Of a stretch of 41,372 nt of DNA, positions 19,053 through 24,654 are shown one piece after another. The stretch covers positions 1 to 41,372 of the forward strand of contig WHTQ01000036.1 in assembly GCA_009377645.1 (NCBI GenBank), in the 5' to 3' direction. Made by a program: the position numbers and the translations under genes. The stretch is from Micromonosporaceae bacterium. Its GTDB lineage: Bacteria > Actinomycetota > Actinomycetes > Mycobacteriales > Micromonosporaceae. The notes beneath the pieces were generated by a model that was given only the letters and a program-made list of their open reading frames with translations, ran no database searches and had not been told where the DNA came from. Within the stretch, counting starts at the first letter, position 1, and each line of letters opens with the position of its first letter.

Positions 19053-19859
19053 GTGACTCCGCCGGTCGGCGACGGCGGGTTTGCCCGCTGGCTCGCGGCG
19101 CGCGCAGGTGACGAGCTGCTGGCACTGCGCGAGAAGCTGGGGTACGAGGACCCGGCTGGACTGCGAGCCGCCGGCGACAAGCGCTCCCACGACCTGCTGG
19201 TCAATGAGCTGGCCCGGGGGCGGCCGGGCGACGCGGTGCTCTCCGAGGAGGCGGCCGCCGACGACGTGGCCGCCCGCCGGTCCGCCGACCGGGTGTGGAT
19301 CGTGGACCCGCTGGACGGTACCCGGGAGTTCGCCGAGCCGGGGCGCACCGACTGGGCGGTGCACGTCGCACTCTGGTCGCACCAGCTGGGGCTGGAGGCG
19401 GGGGCGGTGGCGCTGCCGGCCCAGCACCGGGTGCTCGCGACCGACCAGCCCCCCGCGTACCCGCCGCTGCCCGATCCTGGGGCGGCCGGCGAGCTGCCGC
19501 GGATCCGGATCGCGGTCAGCCGGACCCGGCCGCCGGACTTCCTGGCCGGGGTGGTCGCCGAGCTCGGCGCCGAGCCGGTGCCGCTCGGCTCGGCCGGCGC
19601 GAAGATCGCCGCGGTGGTGACCGGTGAGGTGGACGCCTACCTGCACGCCGGTGGGCAGTACGAGTGGGACTCGGCCGCCCCGGTAGCGGTGGCGCTCGCC
19701 ACCGGGCTGCACGCCTCCCGGATCGACGGTTCTACCCTGAGCTATAACCAGGTCGACCCGCGCCTGCCTGACCTGCTGGTCTGCCGGCGCGACCTTGCCG
19801 ACCGGCTGCTGGCCGCGGTGGCCCGGCACGCCCGCCACACCGAGGAGGAGGTTCGATGA
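19053..19859 (+). CDS. cysQ: 3'(2'),5'-bisphosphate nucleotidase CysQ
   Basis: CysQ hydrolyses PAP (and PAPS) to AMP (and APS), removing the inhibitory by-product of sulfotransferase or PAPS-reductase reactions. The 268-residue protein is of the inositol monophosphatase fold. Metal ligands lie in LSEEAA (64-69) and WIVDPLDGTREF (82-93, with Asp85, Asp88 and Thr90), with a third in the C-terminal YEWDSAAP. A preceding GGGAGG precedes the GTG at 19053. The stop overlaps the cysD ATG by four bases (ATGA). Placing a PAP phosphatase first in the operon implies that PAP is produced when these genes are on. Confidence 0.93.
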   Translation: MTPPVGDGGFARWLAARAGDELLALREKLGYEDPAGLRAAGDKRSHDLLVNELARGRPGDAVLSEEAAADDVAARRSADRVWIVDPLDGTREFAEPGRTDWAVHVALWSHQLGLEAGAVALPAQHRVLATDQPPAYPPLPDPGAAGELPRIRIAVSRTRPPDFLAGVVAELGAEPVPLGSAGAKIAAVVTGEVDAYLHAGGQYEWDSAAPVAVALATGLHASRIDGSTLSYNQVDPRLPDLLVCRRDLADRLLAAVARHARHTEEEVR

Positions 19860-20761
19860 CTGCCGCGTACCGGGTGACCCACCTGGATGCCCTGGAGGCC
19901 GAGAGCATCTTCGTGATCCGGGAGGTGGTCGCGGAGCTGGAACGGCCGGCGCTGTTGTTCTCCGGCGGCAAGGACTCGGTGGTGATGCTGCGGCTGGCCC
20001 AGAAGGCGTTCGCGCCCGGGCCGGTGCCGTTCCCGGTGCTGCACGTGGACACCGGGCACAACTTCCCGGAGGTGATCGCGTTCCGGGACGCGCAGGTGGC
20101 CGACTTCGGGCTGCAGCTGATCGTGGCCAGCGTGCCGGAGGCGCTGGAGGCCGGGCTGGTGCACGAGCCGGCCGACGGCTCCCGGAACCGGATCCAGACC
20201 CCGGTGCTGCTCGCCGCGGTGGAGAAGTACCGGTTCGACGCGCTGTTCGGGGGTGCCCGGCGGGACGAGGAGAAGGCCCGGGCCAAGGAGCGGGTGTTCT
20301 CGTTCCGGGACGAGTTCGGGCAGTGGGACCCGAAGAACCAGCGCCCCGAGCTGTGGTCGCTATACAACGGACGGCACCATCCGGGCGAGTCGATCCGGGT
20401 GTTCCCGCTGTCCAACTGGACCGAGCTGGACGTGTGGCACTATCTGACCGCCGAGGAGATCCCGCTGCCGCCGATCTACTTCGCGCACGAGCGGGAGGTG
20501 GTGGAGCGCGACGGCATGCTGTACGCGGTCAACGAGTTTCTCCCGGCCCGGGCCGGCGAGCACCCGGCGGTGCGCCGGGTCCGGTACCGGACGGTCGGAG
20601 ACGCCTCCTGCACCGCCGCGGTCGCCTCCGAGGCGGCCACCATGGCCGAGGTGATCGCCGAGGTCGCCGCCACCCGGATCACCGAGCGCGGCGCCACCCG
20701 CGGCGACGACCGGGTCAGCGAGGCCGCGATGGAGGACCGCAAGCGGGAGGGGTACTTCTGA
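19856..20761 (+). CDS. cysD: Sulfate adenylyltransferase subunit 2
   Basis: CysD is the catalytic ATP-sulfurylase subunit, making APS from sulfate and ATP; the partner GTPase CysN drives it. The 301-residue protein has the PP-loop SGGKDS at 36-41, HVDTGHNFPE and the conserved GGARRDEEKARAKERVFSFRDEFGQWDPKNQRPELW block. GEHPAVRRVRYRTVGD follows, then EAAMEDRKREGYF at the end. The length is usual for the family. It overlaps cysQ by four bases and shares one base with the cysN start (TGATG), so translation is coupled. Confidence 0.97.
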   Translation: MTAAYRVTHLDALEAESIFVIREVVAELERPALLFSGGKDSVVMLRLAQKAFAPGPVPFPVLHVDTGHNFPEVIAFRDAQVADFGLQLIVASVPEALEAGLVHEPADGSRNRIQTPVLLAAVEKYRFDALFGGARRDEEKARAKERVFSFRDEFGQWDPKNQRPELWSLYNGRHHPGESIRVFPLSNWTELDVWHYLTAEEIPLPPIYFAHEREVVERDGMLYAVNEFLPARAGEHPAVRRVRYRTVGDASCTAAVASEAATMAEVIAEVAATRITERGATRGDDRVSEAAMEDRKREGYF

Positions 20762-22035
20762 TGCCGGAGCTCGAGACCCCGGCCGCCGCCGTGGACATGC
20801 TCCGGTTCGCCACCGCCGGCAGCGTGGACGACGGCAAGTCGACCCTGATCGGCCGGCTGCTGTTCGACACCAAGACCCTGTTCACCGACCAGCTGGCGGC
20901 GGTGGAGGCGGTCAGCGCCGCCCGCGGTGACGAGTACACCGACCTGGCGCTGCTGACCGACGGCCTGCGGGCCGAGCGGGAGCAGGGCATCACGATCGAC
21001 GTGGCGTACCGCTACTTCGCCACTCCGCGGCGCAAGTTCATCATCGCCGACACCCCCGGGCACATCCAGTACACCCGGAACATGGTCACCGGCGCCTCCA
21101 CCGCCGACCTGGCGCTGGTCCTGGTCGACGCCCGCAATGGCATGGTCGAGCAGTCCCGCCGGCACGCCTTCCTGTGTTCGCTGCTGCGGGTCCCGCACCT
21201 GGTCCTGTGCGTCAACAAGATGGACCTGGTCGACTGGTCGGAGCGGGTGTTCGAACAGATCTCCGAGGAGTTCAGCGCGTTCGCCAGCAAGCTGGCGGCA
21301 CCGGACCTGTCGGCGATCCCGGTCTCGGCGCTGCACGGGGACAACATCGTCACCCGCTCCGACCGGATGCCCTGGTACGAGGGGCCGTCGCTGCTGCACC
21401 ACCTGGAGCACGTGCACGTGGCCTCGGACCGGAACCTGGTCGACGTGCGGTTCCCGGTGCAGTACGTGATCCGGCCCCAGTCGAACGCGGTGCGCGACTA
21501 CCGGGGCTACGCCGGGCAGGTGGCCAGCGGGGTGCTCAAGCCGGGTGACGAGGTGATGGTGCTGCCCTCCGGGTTCACCAGCACGATCGCCTCGATCGAG
21601 ACCGCCGACGGCCCGGTGGAGGAGGCGTTCCCGCCGATGTCGGTCACGGTCCGGCTCGCCGACGAGCTGGACGTCTCCCGCGGGGACCTGATCTGCCGGC
21701 CGCACAACGCCCCGGCGGTGACCCAGGACCTCGACGCGATGCTCTGCTGGCTGGACGGCAGCCGGCCGCTGGCGGTCGGCTGCAAGTACGCGATCAAGCA
21801 CACCACCCGGTCCGCCCGGGTGGTCGTCCGGGACCTCCAGTACCGCCTGGACATCAACACCCTGCACCGGGACGAGTCCGCGGACTCGCTGCGCCTCAAC
21901 GAGATCGGCCGGGTGCGGCTGCGCACCACCGTCCCGTTGCTGGCCGACGAGTACCGCCGCAACCGGACCACCGGCGGGTTCATCGTGATCGACGAGCAGA
22001 CCAACCGCACCGTCGGTGCCGCCATGATCGTCTGA
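20761..22035 (+). CDS. cysN: Sulfate adenylyltransferase subunit 1 (GTPase)
   Basis: CysN is an EF-Tu-like GTPase that powers APS formation by CysD. G1 is GSVDDGKST (20-28), the switch region contains REQGITIDVAYRYF, G3 is DTPGHIQYTRNM (about 97-108) and G4 is NKMD (about 152-155). The C-terminal beta-barrels follow. The 424-residue length shows it is not fused to an APS kinase (CysC), and no cysC or APS/PAPS reductase follows, so the fate of APS depends on genes elsewhere. The ATG at 20761 shares its A with the cysD stop. It is the last gene of the operon. Confidence 0.96.
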   Translation: MPELETPAAAVDMLRFATAGSVDDGKSTLIGRLLFDTKTLFTDQLAAVEAVSAARGDEYTDLALLTDGLRAEREQGITIDVAYRYFATPRRKFIIADTPGHIQYTRNMVTGASTADLALVLVDARNGMVEQSRRHAFLCSLLRVPHLVLCVNKMDLVDWSERVFEQISEEFSAFASKLAAPDLSAIPVSALHGDNIVTRSDRMPWYEGPSLLHHLEHVHVASDRNLVDVRFPVQYVIRPQSNAVRDYRGYAGQVASGVLKPGDEVMVLPSGFTSTIASIETADGPVEEAFPPMSVTVRLADELDVSRGDLICRPHNAPAVTQDLDAMLCWLDGSRPLAVGCKYAIKHTTRSARVVVRDLQYRLDINTLHRDESADSLRLNEIGRVRLRTTVPLLADEYRRNRTTGGFIVIDEQTNRTVGAAMIV

Positions 22036-22153
22036 CCCGCAGTTGCAGTCCAGCTGAGTTCCCGCTCACAGCGATAATGCATAGTTATCTAGCACGGCGC
22101 GAGACACCACTCGGTTGTTGCATAACTAACGGATAAGGGCTGATATCGGCATG

Positions 22154-22190
22154 CCTCCTGGTCGGGGAGGTGCAGCGACCCCCAAGGTCG
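22154..22190. terminator. Two small hairpins downstream of cysN
   Basis: CCTCC (22154-22158) can pair with GGAGG (22166-22170), and CGACC (22176-22180) with GGTCG (22186-22190). They lie in the 204-bp gap between the convergent cysN and DUF4143 genes and could end either transcript. There is no T-tract. The rest of the gap is unusually AT-rich around 22070-22135, with an AATGCATAGTTAT-like palindrome, and contains no gene I can support. Confidence 0.35.
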
Positions 22191-22239
22191 TGCGTAGGAT
22201 TGTGCGCATGTGAGCAGTATTCTGGGCTGGCTGCCGCCC

Positions 22240-23505
22240 CTACCGCCAGAGCCGGTCCAGGGCCACGACGTAGAGGCGGTCGTCGTACCGGTAGGAACGC
22301 CGCCCGAGGTTGAGTAGGACGCCGGCCGCGAAGTCGTCGCCAAGCTTGTCTCGCAGCAGCCGCAGCCCGGCGAAGTCCTTGTCGTCGATGGTGCTCGACG
22401 CCTTGATCTCGATGCCTGCCGCGGTGCCGTCGCGCGTTTCGAGGACCAGGTCGACCTCGTGTTGACTGTGGGTCCGCAGATGGCTGAACGTGACGGAGTT
22501 GCGTGCCCAGCCGGCCTGTTTGAGGATCTCGTTGACCGCGAACGTTTCGACGACGTGACCGAACTCGCTGAGGGTGGCCGGCTTGCGTAGTTCGAGCTTG
22601 CGGCGGGTGATACCGAGCACGTGGGCTGCCAAGCCGCTGTCGACGAGGTGCACCTTCGGCGTCTTGGCGATCCGGGTGCCCAACGTGCGGCCGAACGCCT
22701 CCAACCGATGCACCAGGAACACCGACTCCAGCAGGTTGACGTAGTCGTGCAGCGTGCGCGCCTCGTGGCGCATGCTGTTGGCGATGTCGGCGACATTGAG
22801 GAGCTGTCCGGTCCTGGCCGCGAGATGCCGGGTCAGGGTCTGCAGCGCGCCCCGCTGGCGGACTCGACGGATGTCGAGCACGTCACGTAGCACGAGCAGG
22901 TCGACGAGGTCATCGAAGTAGCGACCGCGTGCGTCATCACTTGGCGCCTGCAAGGCGATCGGCAACCCCCCGGTGAGGATGGCCTGGACGTACTCGTCCC
23001 GGGTGGTGTCGCTGATCGGGTGGGACCGTAGGTCGTCGGTCTGGTCGATGACTGTGTCGATGAACGTCTCGCGGTGCTTCTTCAGCTCTGCCTGGGAGAG
23101 TGGCCAGACGGTCATGATGTGCGCGCGGCCGGTGAGAGCCTGAGCGGCCCGCGGCAGCATGGTGTAGCGCGTGGACCCGGTGAGCAGGAACCGTCCGAAC
23201 CGGAAGTCTTCGTTGAGCTCGGCCTTGATGGCGTAGAGAAGATCAGGAGCGTGCTGGAACTCGTCGATACAGACCGGCTCGCGAGGGCCACCGACAAACA
23301 ACCGTGGGTCGGCAAGGACCTGATCCAGCGTGGGTCGGTCGTCCAGGTCGAGGATGGGTACCTCCCGGGCCGCCGCGCAGGCGCGTAGCAGCGTGCTCTT
23401 GCCGACCGTGCGGATGCCGGTGAGCACCACCACCGGCGACTCGGTGAGCCGCTGGGATACCGTCCCGGCCAGGTGCCGGGTGATGAGCGCGTCGGGGTCC
23501 GTCAT
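22240..23505 (-). CDS. AAA+ ATPase with DUF4143 domain (winged helix plus PD-(D/E)XK-like C-terminus)
   Basis: A 421-residue P-loop protein of the AAA_14/DUF4143 family, whose function is not established. Walker A is GIRTVGKST (30-38; the family usually has RQxGKT), Walker B is VCIDE (78-82), and a FLLTGST sensor strand follows. The middle (about 240-300, RTGQLLNVADIANSM...LHDYVNLLESVFLVHRL) looks like a winged helix. The C-terminus has VDLVLE...IEIKAS with Asp352, Glu366 and Lys368, the spacing of a PD-(D/E)XK fold, so nuclease or DNA binding is possible. Base composition is lower in GC and T/A-ending codons are more frequent than in neighbours, pointing to transfer. It opposes cysN and diverges from trpS. 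Its start is 17 bp from a large palindrome. Confidence 0.88.
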   Translation of the reverse strand: MTDPDALITRHLAGTVSQRLTESPVVVLTGIRTVGKSTLLRACAAAREVPILDLDDRPTLDQVLADPRLFVGGPREPVCIDEFQHAPDLLYAIKAELNEDFRFGRFLLTGSTRYTMLPRAAQALTGRAHIMTVWPLSQAELKKHRETFIDTVIDQTDDLRSHPISDTTRDEYVQAILTGGLPIALQAPSDDARGRYFDDLVDLLVLRDVLDIRRVRQRGALQTLTRHLAARTGQLLNVADIANSMRHEARTLHDYVNLLESVFLVHRLEAFGRTLGTRIAKTPKVHLVDSGLAAHVLGITRRKLELRKPATLSEFGHVVETFAVNEILKQAGWARNSVTFSHLRTHSQHEVDLVLETRDGTAAGIEIKASSTIDDKDFAGLRLLRDKLGDDFAAGVLLNLGRRSYRYDDRLYVVALDRLWR

Positions 23506-23521
23506 CTAGCTCCCTGTTAGT

Positions 23522-23567
23522 TAAACTATGGCGGATTATCCGCCATAGTTTAGCGGATAATCCGCCA
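23522..23567. promoter_or_regulatory. 31-bp perfect palindrome and inverted second core copy in the DUF4143 promoter
   Basis: TAAACTATGGCGGAT (23522-23536), a single T, and its exact complement (23538-23552) form a 15-1-15 palindrome. Directly next to it, GCGGATAATCCGC (23553-23565) is a second palindrome, an inverted copy of the TGGCGGATTATCCGC core. The block starts 17 bp upstream of the DUF4143 ATG and 77 bp before trpS. Its size and doubling indicate a dimer- or multimer-bound operator. Which protein binds is not shown. Confidence 0.75.
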
Positions 23568-23571
23568 TTAG

Positions 23572-24653
<1,082 letters not shown>

Positions 24654-24654
<1 letters not shown>

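Follow-up and report, generated by a model that had tools for sequence, protein, structure and literature searches.

What reads the palindromic repeats that stand directly before a solitary ATPase gene in a Micromonosporaceae bacterium, and to what effect? An earlier note on this DNA (a stretch of 41,372 nucleotides, hereafter the window) had described the gene as acquired and controlled by a 31-bp palindrome with a second palindromic core, and had suggested that the encoded protein itself might bind there. The gene and the elements upstream of it are as follows.

22240 to 23505, minus strand: PDC-S01-type gene of 421 aa, encoding an AAA_14 ATPase, a winged helix and a DUF4143/PD-(D/E)XK-like domain (ORF, Pfam and PADLOC profile matches, AlphaFold2 model)
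23522 to 23552, no strand: array copy 1, a perfect 15-1-15 palindrome with core TGGCGGATAATCCGCCA on the coding strand (repeat search and shuffles)
23551 to 23568, no strand: array copy 2, core TGGCGGATTATCCGCTA on the coding strand, 22 bp from copy 1 (repeat search and shuffles)
23547 to 23552, minus strand: TAnnnT (TAAACT), a candidate -10 element between both cores, read from the sequence
23510 to 23515, minus strand: AGGGAG, a probable ribosome-binding site, likewise read from the sequence

Both the palindrome and the second core are real. The repeat search returned two 15-nt arms (23522-23536 and 23538-23552) that are 100% complementary with 1 nt between them, together with a second core, GCGGATAATCCGC, that starts at 23553 and is a 16-nt direct repeat of the first, 94% identical to it at a spacing of 22. 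Because the core is itself palindromic, this second core was scored as a direct and also as an inverted repeat; the window cores are tandem copies, 22 bp apart. The 17-mer core with up to three mismatches has four matches in the window, whereas 100 shuffles of the window gave a mean of 0.08 and never more than 2, and its presence there is unlikely to be a product of chance. Between the palindrome and the ATG start codon lie 16 nt, one fewer than the 17 bp given previously. In the organism's own 4.97-Mb genome the 17-mer core at no more than one mismatch is found only as the two array copies; there are four further matches (one at two mismatches, three at three), against five per strand for a backward-pattern control. 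A second TAnnnT occurs in the window at 23523-23528, and a sigma-70 consensus scan of the window's array region found no promoter.

The GC content of the gene is 66.5%, compared with 70.1-71.3% for the adjoining genes and 73.1% for the window; the drop remarked on earlier is real, though modest in size. A low-GC stretch (47% over 23506-23575) separates the ATG from trpS. The neighbours are presumably cysN downstream and trpS upstream, names that were given from the sequence without a family-library scan, and no regulator gene adjoins the PDC-S01-type gene in the window, in keeping with its description as a lone gene with no partner regulator. Over 19053-24654 of the window, cysD/cysN-like and phosphatase-like genes, also named from sequence, lie on one side of the gene and trpS on the other. 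In an empty-site comparison trpS was present in 15/15 relatives and their DNA similarity to the window ended at the start of trpS; in none of these 15 loci was cysN found next to it. Elsewhere in the same genome (contig C94, 8037-8333) there is a second DUF4143 piece, consisting of the C-terminal part only in a 127-aa frame, which is probably the remnant of another copy.

By profile, the window protein is a member of PDC-S01, a named phage-defence candidate family whose protective role is putative. It matched the PADLOC profile PDLC04790 (PDC-S01) with an E value of 6.6e-144 over residues 6-421 (profile positions 10-419 of 422), and two Pfam families over their curated cut-offs, PF13173 at 74.3 bits (cut-off 27) and PF13635 at 135.7 bits (cut-off 28.1). 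The PDC-S01 family corresponds to COG1373. A sequence search for relatives of solved structure returned none at E≤0.01, and a model was built with AlphaFold2 from 15 homologues (pLDDT 85.4, pTM 0.87). It is laid out as an ATPase core, a winged helix and a C-terminal alpha/beta domain, and the P-loop ATPase, winged helix and PD-(D/E)XK-like C-terminus that had been recognised from the sequence are borne out by the Pfam matches, the model and the fold matches. The relevant parts of the protein are encoded as follows.

23392 to 23418, minus strand: Walker A, residues 30-38, GIRTVGKST, with G30, R32, G35, K36 and T38 invariant in 15/15 homologues
22642 to 22857, minus strand: predicted winged helix-turn-helix, residues 217-288, with helices 218-230, 238-245 and 249-261 and strands 265-268 and 284-287 in the AlphaFold2 model
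22720 to 22767, minus strand: predicted recognition helix, residues 247-262, the start of which (245-255) is the best predictor of array similarity in the pair statistics
22402 to 22452, minus strand: PD-(D/E)XK signature, D352 to E366-x-K368, invariant in 15/15 aligned homologues and supported by the fold of residues 289-421

Residues 1-298 have their best fold matches in the archaeal structures 2QEN and 2FNA, followed by the STAND cores of NLR, CED-4 and Avs5, and Cdc6/Orc1 on origin DNA was third among the Foldseek matches. The two archaeal STAND-like ATPases, SSO1545 (2FNA) and PABY2304 (2QEN), aligned with VIA Z scores of 14.8 and 15.5 over 255 and 253 residues at an rmsd of 4.3 and with 14-18% identity; to our knowledge no self-specific array has been described for either. 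With the STAND NTPases Avs5, CED-4 and plant NLR, the nucleotide-binding and winged-helix core aligns at Z of about 10-14; in contrast to these the window protein has no C-terminal sensor repeats, and shows instead a nuclease-like C-terminus and evidence for DNA reading by its winged helix. The nucleotide-binding, helical and winged-helix domains of a STAND protein are present as a fold resemblance only, and in place of a C-terminal sensor of repeated units, which is absent, the protein ends with a 133-residue PD-(D/E)XK-like domain. We therefore call it STAND-like rather than STAND. When residues 289-421 were folded alone (pLDDT 78.1), they matched Can2 (Z 9.2), McrC (Z 8.3), Card1 (Z 7.8) and more nucleases of the same fold, at moderate Z. 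The C-terminal domain resembles PD-(D/E)XK enzymes in having the D...E-x-K signature within a restriction-endonuclease-like fold, and its nuclease activity is putative; Asp352, Glu366 and Lys368, which had been singled out beforehand, are the invariant residues of that signature.

Upstream regions were compared over loci with near full-length homologue matches, leaving out fragments and some contig-end matches. The first set comprised 93 full-length loci, the window included, 17 having been dropped (truncated, short or without usable upstream DNA) and six others left out (L112 and L113, with no tblastn hit, and four copies of the window locus or of L016). A second, held-out set that was collected later gave 84 loci, 4/88 being dropped. 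All but one of the kept loci (176/177) come from the window's phylum, the exception being a Burkholderiales metagenome bin (L020). A locus was counted as array-bearing if the 150 nt upstream scored at least 6 at a period of 23±1.

It was found that 2-6 copies of a unit specific to the locus, spaced at 22-24 bp, lie upstream of the gene in 164 of the 177 kept homologues, compared with 4-15% of control regions, and that 13/177 have no scored array. The first set reached the score in 85/93 cases, its controls in 10/93, 7/86, 4/93, 7/93 and, for other large ORFs of the same loci, 10/68; in the held-out set the figures were 79/84, with 8/83 and 12/84 for the controls. Taken period by period, 81, 85 and 69 of the 93 loci scored at least 6 at 22, 23 and 24, respectively, and the remaining periods from 15 to 40 gave 0-6 each, except for a shoulder of 15 at period 21. 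A general test, in which the best of periods 12-45 was taken, placed the peak of 78 of these loci at 22-24 and of 8 more at 43-45; 64/93 beat all 50 shuffles. The commonest number of copies is four (80/169 registered arrays). Of 503 steps between copies, 373 are of 23 bp, 113 of 22 and 17 of 24, the search having allowed 22-24 only. The core was better conserved than the spacer in 218/235 pairs, to which we give little weight: the register had been set so as to obtain the most core matches, which biases the comparison.

Fully palindromic units are found in just 4 of the 169 registered arrays, that of the window among them. The palindrome that had been taken as the key element is indeed present, but the relevant unit is a tandem array with 22-24-bp spacing, and the window's cores are a case of this common layout in which the unit happens to be palindromic. 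Units elsewhere are quite different, for example about GCGACCAAACTAACAC (L034), CGGCCAAGTGACCA (L036) and CGGCAGATCTGAAA (L047) in five copies each and AAACGCGGAA (L019) in four. Searching for enrichment of TGGCGGATTATCCGCCA upstream of homologues, the check suggested in the earlier note, did not succeed, as TGGCGGATWATCCGCCA was found in 1/396 phylum genomes, the window's own; this is a false negative, because each homologue has its own sequence and it is the layout that is common. Among 197 upstream regions, only that of the closest homologue, from Stackebrandtia (L004, 76% identical), has nearly the same core as the window, within one mismatch, and the next best region has four mismatches. 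A Glycomyces homologue (L005, 70%) has another unit, TCTCNGATTTTCAG at 22 bp, with an apparent leftover, AAATCCGCCATG, at the far end of its array. The helices of the window, Stackebrandtia and Glycomyces proteins (RHEARTLHDY, GHDARTLHDY and GHEARTLGDY) differ at residue 253 among other sites.

The family has a patchy distribution, being found in 24/61 genomes with the window's own included. Genome scans with the unit gave matches at up to one mismatch only inside the array in one genome (G402); in another (G564) two 1-mismatch sites lay outside it, against a backward-pattern background of 10 and 12, so that uniqueness of the unit is not clean there. Two genomes of the window's order show expansions of the family. 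One of them (G439) has 11 matches in 2.4 Mb and arrays in 5/6 copies examined, all different, the copy at L087 having none; the other (G645) has six matches in 2.7 Mb (6/21 candidates scored), and the four copies examined have four different units.

The position of the arrays places them on the promoter. In the last 60 nt before the start codon, two positions stand out for TAnnnT over the 169 loci: 63 loci have it beginning at -12 and 18 at -13, and no other position has more than 5. The array abuts such a leaderless-type -10 box in about half of the loci. The unit nearest the gene has a median start of -34, on the -35 region, and the start codon is GTG in 74/169. The -12/-13 pattern is the picture of leaderless transcripts beginning at the start codon; leaderless transcripts are common in actinobacteria. 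The window differs from loci of this type in having a probable ribosome-binding site, with its candidate -10 element TAAACT between the cores.

If a host factor read the arrays, paralogues within one genome should share units, yet only 1/81 same-genome pairs (28 genomes) have the same one. By comparison, the unit is common to a protein and its nearest relative in another genome in 45/45 cases at 90% identity or above, in 31/43 at 75-90%, in 14/47 at 60-75%, in 0/33 at 45-60% and in 0/1 below that. These counts show that the unit is private to each gene and tracks the protein rather than the host.

To locate the part of the protein that the unit follows, the 169 loci were reduced to 83 non-overlapping pairs, same-genome pairs included, and local identity was compared with unit similarity after overall identity had been removed. 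An unbiased scan of 413 9-residue windows peaked at residues 245-253 (r 0.45, family-wise p 0.004), with a weaker second peak in the C-terminal domain. When the data were split, the top windows overlapped (246-254 with 43 pairs and 248-256 with 38 pairs). The start of the recognition helix, 247-255, gave r 0.43 and p 0.0005 over the 83 pairs; as this region was picked after a first-pass analysis had pointed there, the unbiased window scans are the fair test. That first-pass analysis used non-independent pairs and gave several peaks, and the non-overlapping pairs supersede it. The wing reached p 0.03 in the 83-pair set and p 0.11 in a 73-pair variant, C-terminal residues 337-348 also correlated with unit similarity (p 0.008), and the AAA domain gave no signal over the 83 pairs (p 0.97).

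Two further analyses set bounds on this result. APC-corrected mutual information between motif positions and residues had D254 in its top pair and E248, L312 and D254 as top columns, and the 5 helix pairs in its top 40 were not significant against permutations, with strong phylogenetic noise. Among pairs below 45% overall identity whose residues 245-256 are at least 66% identical, 0/30 share a unit; the recognition-helix signal is thus gone at low identity, and no portable code is shown. Given these two null results, our claim is limited to specificity among related proteins, with a code that is not readable: the predicted recognition helix appears to help set array specificity among such proteins.

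The reading that we favour, with a probability of about three in four, is that the repeats form an iteron-like operator array of their own gene, and that the protein binds this array in an autoregulatory circuit that is probably repressive. The mark of such an operator, tandem repeats at the promoter of the gene itself, is found as two copies at 22 bp in the window and throughout the 164 array-bearing loci of the family. From the covariation we infer that the product binds its own repeats and, probably, represses the gene, and the suggestion that the protein itself reads the site is supported by the privacy of the units and by the recognition-helix signal. Several adjacent copies of the protein would bind the array through their winged helices and cover the -35 region and the spacer beside the -10 element, in the window on both sides of TAnnnT. 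Transcription of the gene would in this way be kept low by a single-gene, cis-encoded circuit that travels with it, and because each gene has its own code, no cross-regulation would be expected among paralogues in the same genome. More speculatively, infection might switch the ATPase through its ATP state, oligomerisation or titration by foreign DNA; the switched protein might then leave the array, so that the gene is derepressed and the PD-(D/E)XK domain attacks nucleic acid. Plasmid Rep iterons offer a precedent, being repeats in tandem, each about two helical turns long, that lie upstream of a gene whose winged-helix product binds them and represses that gene. They differ from the present case in that no replication gene or origin is seen at the window locus and PDC-S01 is a predicted ATPase-nuclease found on chromosomes and plasmids. 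We consider improbable a more far-reaching version of this model. In it PDC-S01 genes would form an extensive family of protein-DNA pairs that diversify fast and are mutually orthogonal, with transcription regulator, ATPase switch and nuclease in one polypeptide; the array would be a private self-address whose occupancy is sensed, and the nuclease would be both induced and armed when the protein is stripped from it or titrated away by foreign DNA or by a phage factor.

The same geometry could serve activation, the array being a positive-feedback switch that fires the gene when the protein, or its ATP-bound form, accumulates. In some loci copies extend as far as about -150, where the scan ended, as is often so for activator sites, and Table 1 of PMC4406477 lists a Thermus gene of this kind, TT_P0211 (AAA_14, DUF4143), as 6.6-fold up in plasmid-bearing cells with Argonaute, so that such genes are inducible; this shows that a family member is regulated, and the manner is not indicated. 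Against activation, the last copy overlaps the -35 region and spacer beside the -10 element and the window cores flank TAnnnT, which is not decisive, and we regard an activator as unlikely. More doubtful is the proposal that the array is mainly a substrate or address of the nuclease, for protection, replicon exclusion or homing, with promoter control secondary. A PD-(D/E)XK-like domain fused to an array-reading domain would suit it, as would arrays that diversify fast and are private to each gene; against it, where a -10 element can be recognised its distance from the start codon is constant and the last unit lies closely upstream, an arrangement for which a mere substrate would have no need. 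Self-targeted DNA processing, raised in the earlier note, found no evidence in our analysis.

A regulator encoded elsewhere in the host that binds the arrays, leaving the encoded protein uninvolved, is very unlikely in view of the single matching pair among same-genome paralogues, the lack of any regulator adjoining the window gene, and the way in which the unit follows the encoded protein's own recognition helix. Defence-gene operators can nonetheless have dedicated repressors: in the account of it in PMC12255303, RptR, the repressor of a type I R-M defence island, represses its own promoter via three 9-bp direct repeats that carry the palindrome TAGCTA, and two of the three repeats extend into the -10 box. 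RptR, as described there, is a separate regulator with a conserved site, whereas in PDC-S01 arrays the ATPase-nuclease is apparently the reader, the spacing is 22-24 bp and the unit differs per locus. Least probable of all, and disfavoured by us, is a mobile single-gene element that has the repeats as its ends or insertion sites. The patchy distribution, the modest drop in GC and the plasmid homologues that lie near transposase or integrase genes would fit such an element, but the repeats are on the promoter side, and the 150 nt after the stop codon score as the other controls do (7/93).

Outside the main sets, a shuffle-based array test (60 shuffles per locus) was applied to 20 plasmid and phage loci, of which nine passed at p≤0.034. 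These nine include plasmid homologues of Mesorhizobium, Sphingomonas, Agrobacterium, Rhodoferax and, weakly, Azotobacter, as well as one of Roseivivax with the unit ACTTTCAATTGGTCGG at 22 bp; Thermus loci L116 and L123 did not pass. Only five of the 20 (L117, L118, L120, L121 and L122) entered the covariation set. Distant homologues often have no 22-24-bp array, and some have inverted repeats instead. Of 13 loci, most of them more distant (L123-L135) and each compared with 40 shuffles, eight have an upstream inverted repeat at p≤0.05; three of the eight also passed the array test. A distant DUF4143 ATPase gene on a Moraxella bovis plasmid (L124) has a perfect 21-3-21 palindrome from 50 to 6 nt before its start codon, and the inverted repeats TTTATGTAATTTT...AAAATTGCATAAA stand directly before distant DUF4143 ATPase genes on two faecal phage contigs (L134 and L135, p 0.02 for each) and on a related Runella plasmid (L125, p 0.07). 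Promoter repeats that are specific to their own gene may be a general feature whose geometry varies between clades, although the sample is small.

Within a few kb of several plasmid homologues are defence or addiction genes, namely VapC, Fic with an antidote, a restriction enzyme with Qat, and Cas3. On a Roseivivax plasmid (L121, 2727-3632) the homologue overlaps at its end with a gene for a restriction endonuclease, which is followed by qatA; this is possibly a two-gene variant. The phage collection yielded six records with relatives, all from human faecal samples, and the two examined are marked UNVERIFIED; scanning viral contigs with short peptide patterns, taken from the protein and from the alignment, found no relatives.

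The gene had been put forward as an undescribed system. This does not hold for the protein, which is the named defence candidate PDC-S01, matching the PADLOC candidate over its whole length and having an ATPase fused to PD-(D/E)XK as in the relevant passages of PMC12988326. Those passages rank PDC-S01 fourth in frequency among the defences of all prokaryotes and give no mechanism, and the text of that paper mentions no promoter, operator or autoregulation and uses "repeat" in other senses only. It may hold for the arrays, of which our searches found no description in the open literature, the study that defined the PDC systems being known to us through citation only. Autoregulation through operator repeats is known; what appears new is that the reader of the operator is apparently the effector itself and that the code is private to each gene. 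The finding is broader than the earlier note assumed, and is tied to a named candidate defence family that is mechanistically unexplained. With an array before nearly every sampled member, each protein has a DNA ligand and a reading helix that can be predicted, the model of regulation is testable, and the family amounts to an extensive natural set of winged-helix/operator pairs that are apparently orthogonal. The autoregulation model would also explain how the gene moves between hosts without poisoning them.
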